A stretch of DNA of 40,669 bases from Betaproteobacteria bacterium (lineage in GTDB: Bacteria > Pseudomonadota > Gammaproteobacteria > Burkholderiales > Burkholderiaceae_C). This document shows, one piece after another, positions 12,952-32,050 of the stretch. Each line of letters opens with the position of its first letter. Positions within the stretch are counted from its first letter, which is position 1. The DNA is taken from assembly GCA_024641925.1 (NCBI GenBank), contig JAHECB010000003.1, forward strand, positions 8,975 through 49,643, written 5' to 3'. A program made the translations under genes and the position numbers. The notes under the pieces were generated by a model. It was not told where the DNA came from. It was given only the letters and a program-made list of their open reading frames with translations, and ran no database searches.

Positions 12952-14910
12952 TCAAGACAGCAGCCGGTGGTGTGTGCCGTCAAAGTGCGTCAGGCCCTCG
13001 CGTCGAAAAAATTCCAGCACCTGCACCGTCAGGTTGCGCCCGATGCCGGTGTGATCGCGGTAGCTTGCGGCGTCGAAACGCCCCGCGGGTTGACGGGCAG
13101 CCAGCACCTGCGCTTGTTGCAGCAATTCGGTGGCGGTATCGGGCAGGTAAAAACGGTTGGGCGCTACGTGCACCAGCTGGCCTTGGGCGGCCAGCCTTGC
13201 CAGCTGGTCCAGCAAGCCGTCTCGCGGCAGGCCCAGTTGTGTGGCGAGTTCACCCACGATGGGTGGGCGCAGGCCCGCAGGCTGCAGCAGCGTGCTGACC
13301 CGGGCCAGCAAGTCCTGGTCGGCCGTGTTCAGGCTGGGGCGGTGGGCCGGCAGGTGGTGGCACAGACCGTTGCGCGACACCTGGCCTTCTTGCACCAGTT
13401 CGGCCAGCACGCCCTGCATGACCCGATGTGCGGCGTCCGCCGGGCTGGTGTGGGCGCTGGTGGGCCGGGCGGGGCGCTGTTGTTCATCCAGCGCCCTGCG
13501 CAGGGCGCCGGGCTGCGGGCCCAGGCTGTCAGGATGCCGGGCATGCCAGGCGGCCAGCGCGGCCAGCACACGTTCGCGCCAGGTTTGCCAGTGCGTGGGT
13601 GACAAGCCCAGCAGGCCTGTGGTGCCGGGCACCGTTTTCAGCGACAAGGTCTGATGGAGCTGGTGCGCCTCGTCGGGCAAGAGGTTGCGCGCCTGGGCAA
13701 AGCGGTCCAGGTCCACCCCATCGGGCGCCAGCGCCAGCCATCCACACAAGGCCTGTGCGGGGTCCAACACCTGCATGGCCGCCAACTGGTCCAACCGCAG
13801 GGCCTGGCGGCGCCCCGGGGCTGCTGCAAAGGGGTCCACCACCCAACCGCCGGCCACACTGCGGTTGCCGGCGGGCTCCCGCAGGATGAAGCGGTCGCCA
13901 TGGGCAGCGGCCACCGGCTGGTCCAGCCGCAGCTGCACCAGGCCCACGCTGCCGGGCAACAGACCCTGTGGGGTCAAGGGCGTGGCGTGTGCATTCACCA
14001 CCGCAGCGCCCAGGTGCAGTTGCAGGGCGCTGCGCGGGCTCAGTGGCGCGGCTTCGCTGGCCAGCACCCGCAGCCAGACGTCCAGCCGCTGGGTGGGCCG
14101 GTGTGCGGCCGCGGCCAGAACCCAATCACCACGCTGGGGTGGTGAACGTTTCAGTTCGGCGCCCGAGAGGTTCAAGGCGCAGCGCTGGCCCGCCGACGCG
14201 GCAGTGGCCGCTTGCTGGTACTGCTGCACGCCACGCACACGCACGGCCACGCCGCTGGGGGACACGCGCAGCTCGTCGCCCACGTGAACCTGCCCGGACA
14301 GCACCACGCCAGTGATCACCCGTCCAGCACCACTGATCGAGAAACTGCGGTCCACGGCCATGCGGAAATGGCCCGCCACCGGGCGCCGCGCGAGCAGCCG
14401 TGCTGCCTGCGCCAGGTGCTGGCGCAAGGCCGGCAGGCCCTGCTGCCGCGGCGCCACCACCTCAAAACGCGGCGCCTGGGTGTAGGGGCCCGCAGCCAAC
14501 AGCGCATCCATTTCCCGGTGCACCTGCTGCAGGCGCTGCGGCGACACGCGGTCGACCTTGCTCAACACCAGGGCCAGTTGCGGCACCGCCAGCAGTTGCA
14601 GGATCGCCAGGTGTTCGTGCGTCTGCGGCATCGGCCCGTCGTCGGCGGCCACCACGAGCAGGCCCAGGTCCACACCGTGCACCACCGCCAGCATGTTGCG
14701 CACAAAACGCTCGTGGCCGGGGACGTCTACAAAACCCAGCCGTTGTGGTGCTGGGCTGTCGCCGTCGGCCCATTCGGCCACCGCAAAACCCGGCTCGATG
14801 GTCATGCCGCGGCGCTGTTCTTCGGCCAGCCCGTCGGTGTTGATGCCGGTCAGGGCCTGGACCAGGGTGGTCTTGCCGTGGTCCACATGGCCAGCGGTGG
14901 CGATGATCAT
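12952..14910 (-). CDS. selB: Selenocysteine-specific elongation factor SelB
   Basis: This 652-residue translational GTPase brings Sec-tRNA to UGA codons that carry a SECIS hairpin. The start MIIATAGHVDHGKTTL contains the G1 loop; G3 is DVPGHERFV and the SKVD segment is the G4 equivalent of NKxD. The EF-Tu-like domains fill the first half. The C-terminal half contains winged-helix repeats (for example RFDAASYRDHTGIGRNLTVQ near the end) that bind the SECIS RNA in known SelB proteins. The length is close to the usual 610-650. It lies between the UGSC selenoprotein gene, 102 bases upstream, and tRNA-Sec downstream. No selA is adjacent, unlike the common selA-selB arrangement. Confidence 0.96.
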   Translation of the reverse strand: MIIATAGHVDHGKTTLVQALTGINTDGLAEEQRRGMTIEPGFAVAEWADGDSPAPQRLGFVDVPGHERFVRNMLAVVHGVDLGLLVVAADDGPMPQTHEHLAILQLLAVPQLALVLSKVDRVSPQRLQQVHREMDALLAAGPYTQAPRFEVVAPRQQGLPALRQHLAQAARLLARRPVAGHFRMAVDRSFSISGAGRVITGVVLSGQVHVGDELRVSPSGVAVRVRGVQQYQQAATAASAGQRCALNLSGAELKRSPPQRGDWVLAAAAHRPTQRLDVWLRVLASEAAPLSPRSALQLHLGAAVVNAHATPLTPQGLLPGSVGLVQLRLDQPVAAAHGDRFILREPAGNRSVAGGWVVDPFAAAPGRRQALRLDQLAAMQVLDPAQALCGWLALAPDGVDLDRFAQARNLLPDEAHQLHQTLSLKTVPGTTGLLGLSPTHWQTWRERVLAALAAWHARHPDSLGPQPGALRRALDEQQRPARPTSAHTSPADAAHRVMQGVLAELVQEGQVSRNGLCHHLPAHRPSLNTADQDLLARVSTLLQPAGLRPPIVGELATQLGLPRDGLLDQLARLAAQGQLVHVAPNRFYLPDTATELLQQAQVLAARQPAGRFDAASYRDHTGIGRNLTVQVLEFFRREGLTHFDGTHHRLLS

Positions 14911-14989
14911 CGCAAGGCCCGTCGCTGCCAGGGCACTGTCTGCGGTAGCCCAGCCACCGGTGCGCCGCGGGCTGACAGCCGTTCAACCG

Positions 14990-15008
14990 GGCCGGCGCGA
15001 AGCCGGCC
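14990..15008 (-). other. GC-rich hairpin between the selenoprotein gene and selB
   Basis: A perfect seven-base-pair inverted repeat (GGCCGGC / GCCGGCC, five-base loop) starts just after the stop of the UGSC gene. It has no U-run, so it could be a weak terminator or attenuator, an mRNA-stability element, or a chance structure in GC-rich DNA. Confidence 0.35.
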
Positions 15009-15012
15009 GGGC

Positions 15013-15546
15013 TCAGGCCGCTGGCGTGGCCAGCAAACGCTGCAGGATGCCGGGCAGCGCGGCGTCTGCCAGCGCCCGCATTTCATCGTCGCTGCGGTCC
15101 TGGATCGGGTGGGCCACAAACACCAGCGCGGGGGACAAGCCCAAGGTCTTGGCCTGCATGGCCGCAGCCTCTTCAAAAGCCTGCGAGGCCACACCCACGC
15201 CGGGAAGACCGCGGGACTCCAGGTCGGCAATGTCATGCATACAGCACGACGTGCACGACCCTCAGTCCGCCAGGCCTTCGATGACGAGTTGGTTTTCGGC
15301 CGCAATTTGCTGGCGCAGCGCCACGGGTGCTGGCCGCGTGTAGGTGGGTTTGCGGTAGCGATTGACGCGTATCCCTTGTGCCGTCAGCAGGTGTGCCACG
15401 CGGTCCAGGAAAATGTTGCCGCGTGCCTTGGAGATGTCCAGCACGGCCACGGCCAGACCGTGCAAGGCAGCGGGGCGTGGGGCCAGCGCGCGTGCAACCG
15501 CGCCGCGTTCGGAAGTGGGGTCCAGCAGGACCCGAGAGGCCTTCAT
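15013..15546 (-). CDS. UGSC-family selenoprotein with in-frame UGA (Sec95)
   Basis: The reading frame from the ATG at 15546 meets a TGA at 15264-15262 and then continues in the same frame to a true stop at 15013. Read through, it gives 177 residues. The residues around the TGA are EGLAD-U-GSCTSCCMHD, which is the defining (U/C)GSC motif of the UGSC (seleno)protein family known from marine metagenome surveys. The parts before (LLDPTSERGAVARAL) and after (LESRGLPGVGVASQAFEEAA) both look like one continuous domain. Support is strong: selB and tRNA-Sec are next to it and a SECIS-like hairpin follows the UGA. Three more cysteines stand close to Sec (98, 101, 102), suggesting a redox centre. The family's biochemical role is unknown to me. 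Its ATG overlaps the TGA of the thioredoxin-fusion gene. Confidence 0.92.
15232..15250 (-). promoter_or_regulatory. Candidate bacterial SECIS hairpin
   Basis: Eleven bases after the Sec UGA the mRNA can form a seven-base-pair stem (GUCGUGC / GCAUGAC, including one G-U pair) with the loop UGUAU. The loop G is the twentieth base after the UGA, inside the roughly 16-37 base window described for bacterial SECIS elements, and it sits in one of the first two loop positions, as the consensus requires. A competing eight-pair stem (GUCGUGCA / UGCAUGAC, larger loop) is possible. Folding was done by eye. Confidence 0.7.
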
Positions 15547-16988
15547 ACAGCGATCTCCTTGGTGACAGGGGTGGAACCGGTGGCGCCCGAGGCGGCCCAG
15601 CCGGCAATGATGGCGGAAAACAAACCCGCGTTGCCGCCGGCACGCACGATGAGCAGGCCGCCCTTGCGAAACTTGGGCACCTGCTGGCCGGCCAGGGCTG
15701 CGGGCACGCCTTCGGCAATGCCGCCGGCGCCCACCACCAGCTCGTCGCCGTTGAGCATCAGCAGCGTTTCCAGCTCTTGCAGCAGCCTGGCCTTGGACCA
15801 GCCCGCTTCGATGAAAACCCGGCTGTGGTCGGGCGACACCACCAGCAAGGCGTCGCCGGCCTGCGCCAGCTTGGGGTGGTCCACGGCGCGCAGGCACAGC
15901 GCAAAACTGCGGGCCAGCGATTCCGGCGTGCGCGACTTCTGGTCCACCACGCCTTGCACGCCCTCGCCCGCAAACAGCGTGACCGTGGACGCTTGTGGCG
16001 CAAAACCGCGCTGCACCGACAGCGGCTCCCAGACCGAGTTTTCGGCCTCGGCAAAACAGAAGCTGTACTTGCCTGGCGTGCCCAGGGTGGCGCGGTCAAC
16101 TCCGCCCGGGCGACCGCCGCCCACGTTGCGGATGACCAGTTGCAGCGCGCGCCCGATGCTGGCGTTGGCGCGGTGGCCCTGGCCCAGCGCATTGACACCC
16201 GAGTTCAGCCCCACGGCACGCGCCAGGGGGCCGTTGACGATGACCACCGGCCCGGCAAACATGGTGGTGCACAGCACGCCGTGCATGCCGAATTCGTCGA
16301 TCAAGGCCGCTTCGACCGACGCCAGCACGATGGGAAAGTACTCTGGCTTGCACCCCGCCATCACGGCATTGATGGCCACCTTTTCCACCGTGCAGCTTGC
16401 CAGGTCGGGTGGCACCAGGCCCAGCACCTCGTCGGGCCGTCGCGTGGTGCCCTGCAGCATGCGCAGCACGCGTTCGGCGGTGGGTGGCACCACCGGCAGG
16501 CCGTCGGTCCAGCCGCGATCAAAACAGGCCTCGATGGCGTCTTCCGCATCGCCCAGCTCAACCTGGCGCGCTGCCAGCCCGGTGTTGCCAAAGCGGATGG
16601 CCAAGGCCTCGGCGATGCCGGGCTCCAGGGTCTTGGAGCCGCAGCCGGGGCGCATCTCGGGCAGATCGGCGCCCAGATCGGGCAGGCCGCTGATCTGCTG
16701 CCAGTCGCCGCGGTGCCAGCCGTAGGTGCGCGCCACCTCGCGGCCCCCCTGCACGCGAATCAGCGTCGGCACAAACTCGATGTCGAGCTGGTAAGAGTGC
16801 GCCAGCGTGGTGTCGTGCACCAGACCCGCCAGCCCGGTGGCAAAAGCAGCGTCGTCCTGTTGAACCACCGTCAACGTCTGGCCACTTTGGGCCAAGGTGT
16901 GCAGCAGCGGCTCGATCAGCACGCAGGTGGGGCACTCGGCCTTGGCCACGACGATCAGGCCATCCACCAGGTCAGGCAACTTGGGCAT
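15543..16988 (-). CDS. Thioredoxin-fold fusion protein, partner of the UGSC selenoprotein
   Basis: This 481-residue protein has two parts. Residues 1 to about 110 look like a thioredoxin domain: LIVVAKAECPTCVLIEP with a CPTC active site at 19-22, and FVPTLIRV with the expected cis-proline near 74. From about residue 115 (PGCGSKTLEPG) it continues into a large domain I cannot name, with DGLPVVPPT (162-170), AINAVMAGCKPEYFPIVLA and a glycine-rich C-terminus. Many cysteines are scattered in it. The final codons overlap the selenoprotein start (ATGA), and the selenoprotein's ribosome site lies inside this gene, so the two are made together. The start at 16988 is chosen because the thioredoxin fold begins there; the frame is open to 17051. 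From memory, similar proteins adjoin UGSC genes elsewhere. Confidence 0.82.
   Translation of the reverse strand: MPKLPDLVDGLIVVAKAECPTCVLIEPLLHTLAQSGQTLTVVQQDDAAFATGLAGLVHDTTLAHSYQLDIEFVPTLIRVQGGREVARTYGWHRGDWQQISGLPDLGADLPEMRPGCGSKTLEPGIAEALAIRFGNTGLAARQVELGDAEDAIEACFDRGWTDGLPVVPPTAERVLRMLQGTTRRPDEVLGLVPPDLASCTVEKVAINAVMAGCKPEYFPIVLASVEAALIDEFGMHGVLCTTMFAGPVVIVNGPLARAVGLNSGVNALGQGHRANASIGRALQLVIRNVGGGRPGGVDRATLGTPGKYSFCFAEAENSVWEPLSVQRGFAPQASTVTLFAGEGVQGVVDQKSRTPESLARSFALCLRAVDHPKLAQAGDALLVVSPDHSRVFIEAGWSKARLLQELETLLMLNGDELVVGAGGIAEGVPAALAGQQVPKFRKGGLLIVRAGGNAGLFSAIIAGWAASGATGSTPVTKEIAV
15555..15560 (-). promoter_or_regulatory. Ribosome binding site of the UGSC selenoprotein gene
   Basis: AAGGAG lies eight bases before the ATG at 15546, inside the last codons of the thioredoxin-fusion gene. 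Together with the ATGA overlap it fixes the selenoprotein start and indicates coupled translation. Confidence 0.75.
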
Positions 16989-17126
16989 GGTCTTGATGCA
17001 GGTTGGATGTCCAGGCTGGGCCGCGACGGTGTGTCGCCAGCTCCAGCCCATGGCGCATTGTCAACCTTCTTGCGCAACCCGCGACGGCGAGCCGCGCCGC
17101 GCCGTGACGGCTCTGAACGCGGCGGT

Positions 17127-18091
17127 TCAAACCGCCGGCAGCTCGGCGCCGCAAGCGCGGTTGCGCCCCATCGACTTTGCGAGGTAGAGCTGGGCATCGG
17201 CCTCGCGCAACAGGCTGGCTGCGGTGCCTGGCGCCTTGCCGGGCTGCGTGCACACGCCCAGGCTGACCGTCACCACGGGGGCCGCGGTGGAGTCACCATG
17301 ATCGATCTGCAGGGCGTGAACGGCGGCACCCAGTTGCTGCGCGAGCAGCATCGCACCGGCCAGGCCGGTTTCCGGCAGCACACAGACAAACTCCTCGCCG
17401 CCATAGCGCGCCACCAGATCACCAGGCCGGCGCACGCCCGCTTTCAGCGCCGTGGCAACGCGGCGCAGACAGTCGTCGCCGGCCTGGTGGCCATGGCGGT
17501 CGTTGTAGCGCTTGAAAAGGTCGACGTCGATCAACACCACGCTCAGCGCACCACCAGTGCGCGCCGCGCGGCCCCACTCGGAGGCCAGCCGTTCATCAAA
17601 GTGGCGCCGGTTGTAAACACCCGTCAGGCCGTCGATGTAGACCCATTCGCGCAGCAGGTCGGACTGCGCTTTCAGCGTCAGGTGCGTGCGCACACGGGCA
17701 CGAACGATCTTGGGATTGATGGGTTTCGAGATGAAGTCCACCGCACCCAGCTCCAGACCCAGGGTCTCGGCTGACTCGTCGCTGTGGGCCGTCACAAAGA
17801 TGATGGGAATGTCCCGTGTGGCCGGATCGGCCTGCATGCGGCGGCAGACTTCGTGGCCGTCCATGCCGGGCATGACCACGTCCAGCAGCACCAGATCGGG
17901 CCGTTTGCTGGCGCACAGCGCCAGCGCCTGCTCACCATTGGTTGCCATCAGCACCTGATGGTCGGCTGCAAAGGCCTGGTACAGCGCCTGGATGTTGACG
18001 GGCTGGTCATCGACCACCAGCAGGCAGGCACGGCGCTGGGGCGCGCCAGGCAACTCGGGTTCAGGGCGCTTGATGGATTCAGGCACAGCGA

Positions 18092-18095
<4 letters not shown>
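17127..18095 (-). CDS. Response regulator diguanylate cyclase (REC-GGDEF)
   Basis: This 322-residue protein has an N-terminal receiver domain (phospho-acceptor Asp72 in LVLLDVVMPGMDG, lysine in FISKP) and a C-terminal GGDEF domain (IDGLTGVYNRRHF to about residue 310). The active-site motif is GGEEF at 232-236, with the metal aspartate in VLIDVDLFKRYND, so it should make cyclic di-GMP. The inhibitory I-site RPGD at 223-226 lies exactly five residues upstream, so product inhibition is expected. Its ATG overlaps the stop of the giant hybrid kinase gene (ATGA), which makes that kinase the obvious phosphoryl donor through its HPt domain. Its stop lies 138 bases before the thioredoxin-fusion gene. 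Confidence 0.93.
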
Positions 18096-23710
<5,615 letters not shown>

Positions 23711-26213: not shown

Positions 26214-29200
26214 TCAGGGCCGCGTGCTTCGCAGCGGTCGCACCAATGCCAGTGCACGGCTGAAGTCGAATTCGTCCAGGGCGTCGCGCAGGCTGGCAAA
26301 GTCTTCGGCGGACAACGCGGTTCGCAGCGCCGGCTCCAGGCGGTTGAGCAGCGGCATCACGTCCAGGCTCTGGCGTTCCATCAGGGCGACCAGCGCCGTC
26401 ACTTCATCTGGCGGCAGCGCCACAGGCGCACGCGCGGCGCTGTGCTGGGCTTGTGCATCGGCCGTCGCCATCCGGTCGGCCTGGGCGTGCAGCGACGCGG
26501 CAGCCGCTTGCGTCAGGCTGTGCAGCCGCTGTTGCAGCTCGATCTTCAAGGTCTCCAGCGCAGGGTCGCCAGACCGCTGCGCGGCGACCTCCAGGCGGCC
26601 GGCTGCGGCCGCCACGGCCATGGCGCCCACGACCTGTGCGCTGCCCCGCAACTTGTGCAGCCGCTGGGGCAGCTCGGCCATGGGCGTGTCGGTGACGGTT
26701 TCGAACTCGGCCAGAAAACGCTTCAGCAGTGACAGGTAAAGGTCGTTGTCAATCCGCAGCGGCCAGGAAACCGCCGTGTCGTCGATGCCATGGATGTTGA
26801 TGGCCGTGGGCGTTTCCACTGTGCCACGGGTGGCCCGGGGCAGCACCGGCACCGTGGCGCCACGTGCGCGCTCGACCAGTCGCCGAACGCAGCGCACCAG
26901 GCGTGGCGGGTCCAGCGGCTTGGACAAGAAGTCGTTCATGCCGGCGGCCAGGGCGGCTGAGCGTTCGCGCGGTTGCACGCCGGCGCTCAGCGCTACCACA
27001 GGCAGGTTCTTCAGCCCGGGTTGCTGGCGCAGCTGTCGAACGGTTTGATTGCCGTCCATCTCCGGCATCTGCACGTCCATCAGCACGATGTCAAAAGGCG
27101 GTGACGTTTCTTTCAGCAAGGTCAGTGCCGCCGCGCCGCTGCTGCAGCACACCGCCTCGGCGTGTTCCAGCGCCAGCACGCGTTGGGCCACTTCCAGGTT
27201 CAAGCTGCTGTCGTCCACCACCAGCACCCGCACGCCGGCCAGCCAGATCGATTCCCCGCCGCTGATTTCGCTGGCCTCCAGCAAGCGGTTCTGTGCGCCC
27301 TTGTTGCGCCCGATGGCGTTGTTGACGGCGTTGAACAGCGCCGAAGCGTCCACCGGCTTGATCAACAGGGCGTCGGCCAGCTCCACGTGTTCCGCTGCTC
27401 GTAATTTGTCCAGTTCGTGTGCACTGACGATCACGGCGGCCGGTGGCGGCTGTTCATGCAAGGCCTCGCGCAATTGCGACAGCGCCGTCAAGCCGTCCAG
27501 GTCCGGCATGTCCCAATCGGAGATCACGGCTTCGAAGGGGTGACCTTGCTGCGCGGACTCCACCGCCAGTTCAACCAGCGACCGCCCGCCCGGCACTTGC
27601 GCCACCGCCCAACCCAGCGACGTTGCCATGCGCACCAGCGCAGCACGCTGCACATCGTCGTCCTCGGCCACCAGCACACGCACCGGTGTCGGGCGTCCAG
27701 GTGCTGCCGGCAGCAAGGCCGCATCCACGGCCGGCAGCTTCAGCGTCACCCAGAATTCGCTGCCCTGGCCCGGTGTGCTGCGCGCGCCGGCAGCACCGCC
27801 CATCATCTCGGCCAGCTTCGCCACGATGGACAGGCCCAGGCCGGTACCGCCAAATTGCCGGCTGACGCCGGTGTCGGCCTGCGCGAATGGCTTGAACAGC
27901 CGCGACAAGGTTTCCGGGCTCACGCCGATACCCGTGTCGGCTACGGTGAAGCCAAGGGTTTCGGCGCCATCGGCAGGCTCAACTTTCAGGCTGACCGTGC
28001 CGGCGGACGTGAACTTGATGGCATTGCCCAACAGGTTCTGCAGGATCTGGTGCAGGCGTTGGGTGTCGCCCAACACCACGTCGGGCAAATCCGGTGCCGC
28101 CAGCAGTTCCAGCGTCAGACCTTTGGCCTGCGCGCTGGCCGCGTGCAGGTCCATGGCCTCTTGCAGCGCGGGTCGCAGCGCAAAGGCGTCGTCGTCGATG
28201 GTGAACTGGCCGGCTTCGATCTTGGCCAGGTCCAGCACGTCGTTGATCAGGCTCAGCAAGGCCCGCCCGGCCAGCTGGATCTGGCCCACCATGCGCTGCG
28301 GGTCGCTGGGCAAGGTCTCGCGTTGCAGCAGGTAGGTCAGACCCAGGATGGCGTTCAGCGGTGTGCGGATCTCGTGGCTGGTGTTGGCAAGAAAGTCGCT
28401 CTTGGCGCGTGATGCCGCTTCCGCCGCTTCGGTGGCGCGAGCCAGATCGGTGACGTCCAGCCGCAGGCTGACCAGCTGGCCGTCGGGCAGCAGGTGTTCA
28501 ACGATGCGGATGTGGCGGCCGTCGGTCAGCCGCCGGGTCCACTCACCGCCCACGCGGTGATCGCGCATGCGCTGGCGGATCCAGGCTTCGTCCACCGCGC
28601 CTGAATTGGTCGGCGCGTAAACCTGAACACTCAGCCGCAGAATGGTTTCGAACGGTGTACCCGGCACCAGCACCTCGCGGGCCAGCGGGAACATTTCGCG
28701 GTAGCGTTCGGTACAGAAATTCAACCGGTCTTCGGTGTCGTAGATGGCCATGCCGGCGCCCACTGCGTCGATCGAATTGCGCATCAGGGTCAAAGCCCGT
28801 TCACGTTCGCTCTCGGCCAGCCGCCGTGACGAGATGTCGCTGATGGCGGCCAGCGTGAACAAGCCGTCCTCGGTTTCAACGGGGCTGAGGGCAATTTCGA
28901 GCGGCATCTCGGTGCCGTCCCGGCGCAAGCCCACCAGCTCGCGGCCTTCGGCCATCTTGCGATGGTCGCCTTCGCCAAAAAATTGCTCGATCAGCGCGCC
29001 GTGGCCCGCGCGGGCACGCTCGGGCAGCAGCATGCCCACCGCACTGCCCAGCAGATCGGTGCGGTTGTAGCCAAACAGGACTTCGGCCTGCCGATTGACC
29101 AAGGCAATCCGGCCTTGCCGGTCGACCATCATGTTGGCGTGTGGCGCGGCTTCGAACGTGACACGAAACCGCTGTTCGGCGTTTTGCGCCTGGATCACCA

Positions 29201-31010
29201 GCGCGGCCAGCCGCGCCTGTGCGTGCTTCAGGTCGGTGACGTCGTGCACCAGCACGTAAAAGCCCAGTACCTCACCGTTCTGAAATTGCGGAATGTAGTG
29301 CGCCAGCGTATGGCGAATGCCCGAGCCGTCCTGCAAGTGCAGTTCGCGTTCGAACCGCTGGTCCTCACCGCGCAGTGCGGCTTCGATGAAGGGGCGGTTG
29401 GCCTCGTACAGCGTGTCGCCCAGCACCTCGGTCATCGACTTGCCCGCCATCGTGAGGTGGTCGCCTCCGAAATAGCGCGAATAGGCCGCGTTGGCAAAAC
29501 GGTTGCGCAGCTCGCGGTCCCAGGACCCCACCAGGGATGGCAGGGCGTCCAGTACCGTGCGCATGTCCTGGCTGGTCTGTTCCAGCTGTTGTGTGCGTTC
29601 GGCCACCAGGGCGGCCAGCTCTTCGCCGTAGGCGCGCAGGCCCCGCACCTGGTCCAGGCGTTCGGCAATGGGCCGCAAAATCTTCACCACGCCCACCACC
29701 TGGCCACGCTGATCCAGAGCGGGTCCGCCGGAGATTTCCACGTCCACCAGCGCACCGCTGCGGTGTTGGCGCTGTGTCTCGAAGGGCGCGGTGGGCTGGC
29801 CCTGCCGGGCGTTGTCGATCAGCAGCTGGTCCTCGGCCACTTGTGTCGGTGCGGCGCCCAGGGCGGTGATCGGATGGCCCACGGCCTCTTCGCGGGTGTG
29901 GCCAAAGATCCGGCTGGCGCCGCGGTTCCAGAACGTCACCACGCCGGCCAGGTCCATGCCGATGATGGCGTCACTGGCCTGGTCCAGCATGGTGGTCAGA
30001 CCCATGTTGCGGACCACTGTTTCTTGCCGACTGGCGCGCAGCCGGATGATGGTGGTGGTCAACAGCGCGGCCAAGGCGGCGGCGAGCAAGCCCAGCAGCA
30101 AGACCGTGGGTGGTGGTGTCAGGTTCAGGCCCCGCACCAGGGCAGGCTGCGCGTGAAATTCGAATCGCCACTGCCGGCCCAGGACGTCACGGGTCAGGCT
30201 GGCCTGCCCCAAGGCTTTCTGGGTTGAAGCCGGGGCCGGCATCTGCAGCCCGATCGGCTTGGCGGGATCGGTGATGTCCGCAATGTCCAGACGCACCAGT
30301 TCGGATTTCAGGCCGCCGGCGATCAGCAGGTCGTCGACTTGAATGGGTGAATACACAAAAACCGGCGACGCGGCGATAGGTGCCTTCAGGCCCAGGTTGA
30401 CCGGCTGCACGGCGAGCAACATCAACAGCCCCATGGAGCTGCCCGGTTGGGACTGCACCAGCCGAATGGGGCCGGTGATGACTGCGTGGCCTGACGTCAA
30501 TGCCGCGTTGGTGGTGGCCAGGCGCATGGACTCCGACGCCACGTCCAGTCCGACGGCCGCACGGTTGGAATCCACCGGCTCGACCAGCTGGATGACCCGC
30601 CGTTCGCCGGCATGCGGCGTCAGCTGCTTGATGCTGAAGTCCGGCGCGCCACGGTCTCTGACGCTTTGCAGGTAAGCCACCTCGTTTTCGGGTGGCACCC
30701 GCACGATCATGCCAACACCCAGGATGCCGGGCAGTTCCACCGCCAAATCCCTGGATTCGAAGTACCGCCTGAAATCGGCAGAGGTGACTTTGTCCGGCCC
30801 CGCGCCCATGACAAAACCGCGCGTGCCGCGCAACATCATTTCGCTGCGTTCCAGGCGATTCAGCGCGCTGTCCACCACGTCGGACCCGCGCTCCAGGGTC
30901 TCCAGCTGCACGGCTCGCTGGATGCGATGCTGCTGCCACACGGTCAACCCGGTGGCCAGCGCGCCGCCCGTCAGCGCCACGATCAGGCCCCAGCGCAGCG
31001 CGGGGGTCAT
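26214..31010 (-). CDS. CHASE - multi-PAS hybrid histidine kinase with two receivers and HPt (second copy)
   Basis: This 1,598-residue membrane sensor kinase has the same plan as the gene at 18092-23710 but fewer PAS domains. There is a transmembrane helix near residues 6-24, a periplasmic CHASE-like region (ELPGILGVGMIVRV, IQLVEPVDSNRAAVGLDVAS) and a second helix near 300. About four PAS domains follow. HisKA has His879 in NTSHEIRTP, the ATPase domain has DTGIGV and GGTGLG, receivers have Asp1165 (ISDWDMPDLDG) and Asp1312 (LMDVQMPEMDG), and HPt has His1452 in LHKLRGSAQ. The ATG at 31010 overlaps the TGA of the upstream GGDEF gene (ATGA); a longer frame to 31097 would run deep into that gene and is rejected. 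The ligand is unknown. Confidence 0.93.
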   Translation of the reverse strand: MTPALRWGLIVALTGGALATGLTVWQQHRIQRAVQLETLERGSDVVDSALNRLERSEMMLRGTRGFVMGAGPDKVTSADFRRYFESRDLAVELPGILGVGMIVRVPPENEVAYLQSVRDRGAPDFSIKQLTPHAGERRVIQLVEPVDSNRAAVGLDVASESMRLATTNAALTSGHAVITGPIRLVQSQPGSSMGLLMLLAVQPVNLGLKAPIAASPVFVYSPIQVDDLLIAGGLKSELVRLDIADITDPAKPIGLQMPAPASTQKALGQASLTRDVLGRQWRFEFHAQPALVRGLNLTPPPTVLLLGLLAAALAALLTTTIIRLRASRQETVVRNMGLTTMLDQASDAIIGMDLAGVVTFWNRGASRIFGHTREEAVGHPITALGAAPTQVAEDQLLIDNARQGQPTAPFETQRQHRSGALVDVEISGGPALDQRGQVVGVVKILRPIAERLDQVRGLRAYGEELAALVAERTQQLEQTSQDMRTVLDALPSLVGSWDRELRNRFANAAYSRYFGGDHLTMAGKSMTEVLGDTLYEANRPFIEAALRGEDQRFERELHLQDGSGIRHTLAHYIPQFQNGEVLGFYVLVHDVTDLKHAQARLAALVIQAQNAEQRFRVTFEAAPHANMMVDRQGRIALVNRQAEVLFGYNRTDLLGSAVGMLLPERARAGHGALIEQFFGEGDHRKMAEGRELVGLRRDGTEMPLEIALSPVETEDGLFTLAAISDISSRRLAESERERALTLMRNSIDAVGAGMAIYDTEDRLNFCTERYREMFPLAREVLVPGTPFETILRLSVQVYAPTNSGAVDEAWIRQRMRDHRVGGEWTRRLTDGRHIRIVEHLLPDGQLVSLRLDVTDLARATEAAEAASRAKSDFLANTSHEIRTPLNAILGLTYLLQRETLPSDPQRMVGQIQLAGRALLSLINDVLDLAKIEAGQFTIDDDAFALRPALQEAMDLHAASAQAKGLTLELLAAPDLPDVVLGDTQRLHQILQNLLGNAIKFTSAGTVSLKVEPADGAETLGFTVADTGIGVSPETLSRLFKPFAQADTGVSRQFGGTGLGLSIVAKLAEMMGGAAGARSTPGQGSEFWVTLKLPAVDAALLPAAPGRPTPVRVLVAEDDDVQRAALVRMATSLGWAVAQVPGGRSLVELAVESAQQGHPFEAVISDWDMPDLDGLTALSQLREALHEQPPPAAVIVSAHELDKLRAAEHVELADALLIKPVDASALFNAVNNAIGRNKGAQNRLLEASEISGGESIWLAGVRVLVVDDSSLNLEVAQRVLALEHAEAVCCSSGAAALTLLKETSPPFDIVLMDVQMPEMDGNQTVRQLRQQPGLKNLPVVALSAGVQPRERSAALAAGMNDFLSKPLDPPRLVRCVRRLVERARGATVPVLPRATRGTVETPTAINIHGIDDTAVSWPLRIDNDLYLSLLKRFLAEFETVTDTPMAELPQRLHKLRGSAQVVGAMAVAAAAGRLEVAAQRSGDPALETLKIELQQRLHSLTQAAAASLHAQADRMATADAQAQHSAARAPVALPPDEVTALVALMERQSLDVMPLLNRLEPALRTALSAEDFASLRDALDEFDFSRALALVRPLRSTRP

Positions 31011-32050
31011 GCGGGCCCTTTGGGCTTGCTGTCCGCTTTGTGCGCCGTGTTCATGCCCACTGCCACCGCGGCCTGGCTGCCCAAGACCTTGTACCAAGCC
31101 TGGTTGCGGCCATTTGATTTGGCGCTGTACAGGGCCATGTCGGCGCAGCGCAATAAAGCGGCTGCATCGGCCGGCGACTGGTCCGGCGGTGATGCACTGT
31201 CCGCTGTTCGCAGCGCCGGCCCGGCCTGCGCCGAATTCAGCGATGAAAGCCCGATGCTGACGGTCAGGTGATCTGCCACGCTTGACGCGCCGTGGGGTAC
31301 CTGGGCCATGCTGACGGCGGCCAGCACGGACTGCGCCACCGTGCAGGCGCCTTCCAAGTCGGTTTCGGGCAGGACAAAGGTGAATTCTTCGCCGCCGTAG
31401 CGGGCCACCAGATCAGCCGGTCTGCGAGCCACCGACTTCAGGGCCGCAGCCACCTCTCGCAGTGCGTCGTCGCCGGCCTGGTGGCCGTGGTGGTCGTTGT
31501 AGGCCTTGAAGTGGTCGACGTCCACCATCATCACGGCCAGGGGTTTGCTGTTGCGCAGGGTGCGCAGCCATTCGACCTGCAACACCTCGTCCAGGCGCGC
31601 CCGGTTGGCCAGGCCCGTCAGGCCATCGGTCACGGCCTCGCGGCGCAGCCTGTCGGCCAGCCGCTTCATGCGCACCAGGTTGCCCACCCGGGCCTTCACG
31701 ATGGCGGCGCGGGGGGGCTTGGCCAGAAAGTCGGCGCCGCCGCTGTCCAGCGCACGCAATTCACTGGCCTCATCGGCATTGGCGGTGAGAAAAAGCACCG
31801 GCACGTCGCTGGTCGACGGGTCTTGCTTGAGCTGGGCACAGACCTCGTGGCCGCCCAGGCCGGGCATTTCAACGTCCAGCATCACCAGATCGGGTGGATC
31901 CAGCCGCGCCAGCCGAAGCCCGTCTTGGCCGGTGCGCGCAACCTGCACCGCAAACCGGCCGTTCAGCATGCGGCTGAGCGCGATCAGCATGGTGGTGTCG
32001 TCATCAACAATCAACACCCGCGGCATGTCTGCCGCCAACAACTCAGGCAT
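31007..32050 (-). CDS. Response regulator diguanylate cyclase (REC-GGDEF)
   Basis: This 347-residue protein has a receiver domain (Asp59 in LVMLDVEMPGLGG, lysine in FLAKP) and a complete GGDEF domain: TDGLTGLANRARL, MMVDVDHFKAYND, GGEEF at 219-223 and the I-site RPAD at 210-213. It should make cyclic di-GMP under phosphorylation control and be product-inhibited. The ATG at 32050 has GGGAAGC upstream and is preferred over a start at 32128, which would add a non-homologous leader. The stop overlaps the ATG of the second hybrid kinase, so here the cyclase precedes its kinase. In the other pair the order is reversed. Confidence 0.92.
   Translation of the reverse strand: MPELLAADMPRVLIVDDDTTMLIALSRMLNGRFAVQVARTGQDGLRLARLDPPDLVMLDVEMPGLGGHEVCAQLKQDPSTSDVPVLFLTANADEASELRALDSGGADFLAKPPRAAIVKARVGNLVRMKRLADRLRREAVTDGLTGLANRARLDEVLQVEWLRTLRNSKPLAVMMVDVDHFKAYNDHHGHQAGDDALREVAAALKSVARRPADLVARYGGEEFTFVLPETDLEGACTVAQSVLAAVSMAQVPHGASSVADHLTVSIGLSSLNSAQAGPALRTADSASPPDQSPADAAALLRCADMALYSAKSNGRNQAWYKVLGSQAAVAVGMNTAHKADSKPKGPA

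Follow-up and report, generated by a model that had tools for sequence, protein, structure and literature searches.

Here, we analyse a 40,669-nucleotide (nt) stretch of DNA, referred to as the window, from a Betaproteobacteria bacterium of the order Burkholderiales (GCA_024641925.1, contig JAHECB010000003.1, positions 8,975 to 49,643), whose minus strand at 15013-15546 encodes, as far as sequence can show, a selenoprotein of the UGSC family. The gene is an added member of an already known family and belongs to the same unit as an upstream partner gene. The recognition that this partner consists of a thioredoxin domain and a conserved C-domain and is paired with UGSC is new here, as are the probable remote kinship of UGSC with PrdB/GrdB and the link to thioredoxin, which is supported by domain fusion and gene neighbourhood. 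We propose that UGSC is the catalytic subunit, and the partner the other subunit, of a thioredoxin-fed two-subunit reductase that is PrdB/GrdB-like, probably by remote relationship, and has a different substrate subunit; the chances that this proposal is right appear to us evenly balanced.

On direct reading, the minus-strand frame opens with an ATG at 15546, meets a TGA at codon 95 (15264-15262), continues for 82 codons and closes with a TGA at 15015-15013. This yields a 177-residue read-through protein with the residues AD-U-GSCTSCCMHD around the UGA, precisely the frame and motif described in an earlier note on this DNA. The family assignment made in that note also holds. The read-through protein scores 142.2 bits against NF041046 (UGSC_fam; curated cut-off 125) over residues 30-171 and 136.3 bits against the Pfam UGSC family PF24696 (cut-off 25) over residues 7-171. 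Similarity thus spans both sides of the UGA, and homologues run past it; homologues ending before the UGA, or a loss of similarity behind it, which the note had named beforehand as contrary findings, do not occur. The protein has the [U/C]GSC motif with its invariant UxxC pair, and the cysteines (Cys) at +3, +6 and +7 from the selenocysteine (Sec) at position 95 are present; among these sites only U/C95 and C98 are invariant over 50 diverse members. The redox centre that the note had drawn from three cysteines is still likely, but as a UxxC pair, with C98 as the single invariant Cys of the three, that would act together with a partner; the partner gene had gone unmentioned there. One UGSC gene was found in the source genome, which is 93% complete and one of five UGSC-containing genomes among 398 of the phylum.

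Decoding of the UGA at codon 95 as Sec is well supported by sequence comparison. At the site of Sec95, 99 of 110 UGSC genes (loci L054-L196 plus the window) have UGA and 11 have Cys, in agreement with the alignment of 50 members, so that the aligned Cys homologues proposed as a check do exist. This count required matches of at least about 350 nt and an E of 1e-10 or better, and hence omits two further UGSC genes, of Blastococcus and Geodermatophilus, with UAG at the Sec site. UAG-coded Sec is already in print for the family of these two genera, according to passages of PMC5330540. The 51 nt of RNA after the window UGA have a folding energy of -23.7 kcal/mol (z -2.98), matched by 2 of 200 shuffles, and include a hairpin matching the apical part of a bacterial Sec insertion sequence (SECIS; Table 1). 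Over 97 distinct Sec genes, 89.4% of the pair cells of the stem are kept, with all seven pairs in 64 genes, versus 67.5% and 2 of 11 in the Cys genes that served as control, which are few and mostly more diverged. When one side of the stem is slid by 1-3 bases, 9-50% of the pairs are retained. Conservation of the stem is partly due to the protein, because the coding sequence there is itself conserved.

The adjacency of selB, tRNA-Sec and a SECIS-like hairpin that the note had claimed is borne out by the TIGR00475 match, the ARAGORN and RF01852 matches and the fold statistics. Because selB and tRNA-Sec are adjacent and selA and selD lie on other contigs of the source genome, its Sec machinery is complete. 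The nearest named relative of the unit among the best 80 partner loci, an Aquabacterium metagenome-assembled genome (partner 79% identical), keeps the order partner, UGSC, selB, tRNA-Sec; tRNA-Sec was detected on 5 of 55 scanned loci. On plasmid pFER4 of Paracoccus ferrooxidans (L215, 10416-12191), selB lies about 3.3 kb from a Sec-encoding UGSC-partner pair in a neighbourhood like that of the window. The splitting or truncation expected from routine annotation is seen in public plasmid gene tables (from PLSDB, which are incomplete): in pFER4 the gene is entered as two hypothetical proteins across the UGA, in Acidovorax T1 p2-T1 as one that ends at it. A strong G+C-rich hairpin between the UGSC stop and selB (14985-15013, minus strand, -20.6 kcal/mol) is possibly a terminator or attenuator.

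The partner gene, whose probable true start is an ATG at 16988, overlaps UGSC as ATGA. In profile scans, the frame at 15543-17051 matched no NCBIfam family and no Pfam family above cut-off. A sequence motif together with a confident structure model nevertheless shows a thioredoxin domain, which is encoded in 83 partner genes and missing from 49, two of the latter being cut by a contig edge. The C-domain of about 340 residues has 29 invariant positions across 10 diverse members. Two plus-strand open frames opposite UGSC and partner (14212-16725, 837 aa; 15378-17774, 798 aa) most likely arise as a by-product of high G+C.

Comparison of gene positions across genomes shows the pairing of UGSC with this partner to be near-constant. 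Searching named genomes with the partner alignment gave at least 592 matched stretches, 585 of them confirmed relatives, and the best 80 were used; titles of these loci include Proteobacteria, Actinomycetota, Acidobacteria, Anaerolineae, Myxococcota and Hydrogenedentota, among others. UGSC follows on the same strand within 307 nt at 67 of these 80 loci, lies further downstream at two (4.9 and 7.4 kb) and about 540 nt away on the opposite strand at two, and was not found at nine, three of which end at a contig edge. Counted in reverse, 37 of 38 UGSC genes in genomes have the partner within 400 nt and the remaining one has it at 3.5 kb; with eight plasmid loci added, themselves picked by partner matches, the count is 45 of 46. 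A partner match adjoins the UGSC match in all nine plasmid records having UGSC, and in 61 related genomes the same nine contain both genes. Distance matrices of the two proteins correlate among 19 paralogues of one genome (r 0.82) and among 67 named loci (r 0.64), with 0 of 2000 permutations reaching either value.

That genome, a 6.2-Mb member of the same order (G041), has 19 UGSC genes (L134-L152), all of them with a single in-frame TGA; for one selenoprotein family this is an unusual expansion. The partner lies within 400 nt of 18 of these genes and 3.5 kb from the other. A 20th partner copy (L153) has no UGSC on its 16-kb stretch. UGSC and partner were also found as fused proteins. On plasmids of Sporomusa termitida (L170, 6281-8005) and Vibrio europaeus (L172, 5401-7086), such fusions, with a weak partial UGSC match of about 24 bits, are followed by a gene for a flavin adenine dinucleotide oxidoreductase or an enolase, with aconitase X near. 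The Global Ocean Sampling set contains a UGSC/Unknown_1 fusion, according to a passage of PMC2398784. It possibly represents the same association.

Gene neighbourhoods suggest that partners lacking a thioredoxin domain (Trx-less) may draw on separate thioredoxin genes. A gene resembling that for thioredoxin reductase (TrxB) is located no more than 2 kb away, on the same strand, at 9 of 40 Trx-less loci versus 0 of 74 loci with a fused domain (Trx-fused; Fisher p 4e-5). Within 300 nt the counts are 6 of 40 versus 0 of 74 (p 0.0014), and on either strand within 3 kb they are 9 of 40 versus 1 of 74 (p 3e-4). Neighbours were called at phmmer E < 1e-30 at loci holding both genes, with two loci cut by a contig edge omitted; the test was suggested by three plasmid cases that are counted in it, and the loci are not independent. 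Of the eight neighbours scanned among these nine, three score above the TrxB cut-off (343 bits), and the other five are TrxB-like at 195-251 bits. Among plasmids with Trx-less partners, the order is trxB-trxA-partner-UGSC in Arthrobacter and partner-UGSC-trxB in Roseovarius, and trxB is separated from the pair by two genes in Variovorax SRS16. In Variovorax boronicumulans, seen after the test, a TrxB-like gene (159 bits) lies one gene ahead of a fused UGSC-partner gene.

Profile comparisons make it probable, but do not prove, that UGSC is a remote relative of PrdB/GrdB, with Sec aligned over Sec. An hhalign comparison of 50 UGSC sequences with six PrdB/GrdB-type sequences gave a probability of 91.3% (E 9.6e-7 for a single comparison), with the UGSC Sec placed over the Sec/Cys of PrdB/GrdB and the helix after the motif also matching. 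Exchanging query and template gave 81% (E 1.2e-5), and comparison with two GrdB-type sequences only gave 37% (E 3.5e-4). The score of 49.2 compares with 14.9 for the reversed alignment and at most 25.6 for 40 column shuffles. With a UGSC hidden Markov model (HMM) run on 1633 proteins with filters off, two of the six PrdB/GrdB proteins were found at E 3.8e-5 and 1.2e-4, with the remaining four at 0.007-0.08. In the opposite direction, the top nine of 1627 locus proteins found by a PrdB/GrdB HMM were all UGSC, but strong values were reached by the first two alone (2.3e-7 and 1.6e-4, compared with 0.13 for the ninth). In the structure model of UGSC (predicted local distance difference test, pLDDT, 89.8), a strand-helix unit is repeated five times, and Sec95 sits after the third strand, just ahead of the helix that follows. 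The closest structural matches of this model are flavodoxin-like chains (Foldseek 4e-5, template-modelling score, TM, 0.44). The predicted fold, with alternating beta and alpha elements, thus appears flavodoxin-like rather than thioredoxin-like as guessed in a 2008 ocean survey (passage in PMC2398784).

By analogy with PrdB and GrdB, a reaction sequence can be sketched. For D-proline reductase, passages of PMC3091704 propose that the Sec of PrdB attacks the alpha carbon and that a Cys of PrdB then releases the product, leaving a selenide-sulfide bond. The exchange in glycine reductase is fed by NADPH, thioredoxin reductase and thioredoxin (same source), and betaine reductase likewise uses thioredoxin and its reductase (passage in PMC8547467). 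In the UGSC unit, the C-domain of the partner would hold a small organic substrate. Sec95 would attack it, with reductive cleavage of a bond to carbon (C-N, C-O, C-S or C-halogen), and Cys98, given the invariant UxxC, would resolve the intermediate as a selenenyl-sulfide. Re-reduction could then come from the fused CPTC thioredoxin domain of the partner or, in other lineages, from separate TrxA/TrxB, a step that fusion and gene neighbourhood support. Reductive cleavage, the class of substrate and a physical complex of UGSC and partner are inferred. Since the partner is unlike PrdA, its way of holding the substrate would differ from that in D-proline reductase.

Genes near UGSC pairs encode transporter receptors, enoyl-CoA hydratases, CoA transferases, members of the phosphoenolpyruvate (PEP) mutase family and phosphosulfolactate synthase-like proteins, which point to small organic acids. 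TctC transporter receptors make up 20 of 125 neighbour proteins in G041 (127 called genes, two omitted, one of them a wrong-frame call), a modest enrichment because this genome holds at least 150 such genes among 386 candidates. Around Trx-fused loci, no family dominates among 147 neighbour proteins (150 random draws from 228 called genes minus three long ones; largest family 7 members).

Several observations weigh against a PrdB/GrdB-like, thioredoxin-fed pair. The profile signal leans on the motif and the next helix, falling from 49.2 to 28.7 (E 0.0016) once 12 motif columns are removed, and 40 block shuffles gave scores of up to 42.9. The window protein has no PF07355 match at E up to 10 with HMMER filters on. 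Partner alignments are unlike PrdA (hhalign E 0.61 and 0.85 against two start-cut PrdA sequences, with GrdE outside the comparison), and this likeness was checked for the partner only, PrdA/GrdE-type genes not having been sought elsewhere in these genomes. Six of the 80 partner loci (L118, L123, L127, L129, L130 and L133) have no UGSC nearby despite 1.4-10 kb of remaining contig, and all six genomes hold UGSC elsewhere; at L123, L129 and L133 the frame after the partner reads like SecG. Only 8 of the 19 paralogues and 38 of the 67 named loci have the same nearest neighbour in both distance matrices. A TrxB-like neighbour is missing from 31 of the 40 Trx-less loci and, in G041, from 16 of 17 with UGSC, and at one Trx-fused locus, L181, a strong TrxB match occurs on the opposite strand at a distance of 2.3 kb. 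Lastly, the neighbour genes indicate no substrate.

Other explanations have to be weighed against the same evidence. It is somewhat unlikely, in our estimation, that the pair serves redox defence as a general thiol-disulfide oxidoreductase or peroxidase instead of being a substrate-specific reductase. The UxxC motif, the thioredoxin domain and the occasional TrxB-like neighbour would suit such a role, and a peroxidase activity of GrdB is named in the title of a reference within PMC3091704. However, the C-domain with its invariant positions looks like a substrate site, and the 19 diverged copies in G041 near transporter receptors and CoA-type enzymes fit catabolism better, even if the receptor enrichment is modest. 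We see a smaller chance that the pair is non-reductive and catalyses a group transfer, lyase or isomerase step with the selenolate as nucleophile, thioredoxin merely keeping Sec reduced. A weak match of the partner fold to class I fumarases (Foldseek E 2.5e-3, TM 0.23) and lyase-type plasmid neighbours such as the isocitrate lyase/PEP mutase family, phosphosulfolactate synthase and aconitase X agree with this, but profile comparison of the partner with fumarase gave nothing, and a TrxB neighbour would suggest stoichiometric use of electrons. That UGSC is a free-standing thioredoxin-like selenoprotein and the partner a mere neighbour is already disfavoured and very improbable, given the confident model with its five strand-helix alternations nearest to flavodoxin-like chains and the near-constant pairing. 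A true stop in a truncated or decaying gene, as gene callers and the public Acidovorax table would have it, is practically dismissed by homology before and after the TGA, homologues with Cys or UAG at this codon, the conserved hairpin and the complete Sec machinery.

Table 1. Features of the UGSC unit in the window (coordinates in window positions)
Feature	Position	Strand	Basis
UGSC-family selenoprotein gene, Sec95	15013..15546	-	NF041046 142.2 bits, PF24696 136.3 bits
In-frame TGA read as Sec95	15262..15264	-	Natural Cys and UAG homologues at same column
Cys98 codon, invariant second residue of UxxC pair	15253..15255	-	Invariant with U/C95 over 50 members
Apical hairpin of bacterial SECIS, 7-bp stem, UGUAU loop, start 11 nt after UGA	15232..15250	-	Fold z -2.98; stem conservation
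AAGGAG, Shine-Dalgarno-like, preceding UGSC start	15555..15560	-	Read directly
Partner gene: thioredoxin domain (~23-123) and conserved C-domain (~160-500)	15543..17051	-	Sequence motif and confident model
CPTC active-site motif of partner's thioredoxin domain	16923..16934	-	C40, T42, C43 conserved in at least 90% of 74 partner sequences
selB, Sec-specific elongation factor	12952..14910	-	TIGR00475 338.3 bits, cut-off 242.25
selC, tRNA-Sec, UCA anticodon	12809..12903	-	ARAGORN; Rfam RF01852 70.9 bits

Elsewhere in the window, two very large CHASE-PAS hybrid histidine kinases are encoded on the minus strand (18095-23710 and 26217-31097), near three response-regulator GGDEF proteins.

In the ocean survey, UGSC proteins ranked with the most frequent selenoproteins (PMC2398784, in part), and a 2026 review counts them among selenoproteins with functions still largely uncharacterised (PMC13188914, in part). 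The excerpts of the literature on UGSC selenoproteins that we drew on give no function or substrate and make no link to PrdB/GrdB. The near-constant partner, the electron donor and the likely relationship to a known type of reaction make UGSC a testable enzyme. If the proposed reductase is real, chemistry of the Grd/Prd type reaches beyond proline, glycine and betaine reductases, and a role can be given to a protein family that is labelled 'hypothetical protein' in the examined annotated plasmid records, where it is listed. A further-reaching idea, possible but tentative, is that UGSC and partner constitute a third branch of Grd/Prd-kind selenoreductases. This branch would combine the same nucleophilic Sec subunit with a substrate subunit that is non-pyruvoyl, belongs to a new family and often has thioredoxin built in, and would occur in bacteria and, in Cys form, haloarchaea; the 19 Sec-encoding copies in one genome would serve many substrates.

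Compared with known systems, the window protein agrees with UGSC_fam NF041046 and PF24696 in curated score, in the UxxC motif and in Sec or Cys at the same column; those family entries name no partner gene. UGSC resembles PrdB/GrdB (PF07355) in the register of the Sec/Cys motif, in the following helix and in profile matches both ways, and PrdB/GrdB also work with a second subunit (passages of PMC3091704 and PMC8547467). As in D-proline and glycine reductase, thioredoxin is part of the picture, its supply being encoded with the UGSC pair, as a fused domain in the window and as trxB/trxA beside some Trx-less pairs. In contrast to PrdB/GrdB, UGSC is shorter, has no PF07355 match (this family is also not among the families listed, 25 of 28, for the 50 UGSC members, and occurs in 2 of 200 genomes of the phylum) and has a partner unlike PrdA. 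Unlike PrdB/GrdB, it is also found on haloarchaeal plasmids, in Cys form, and in many Proteobacteria and Actinobacteria.
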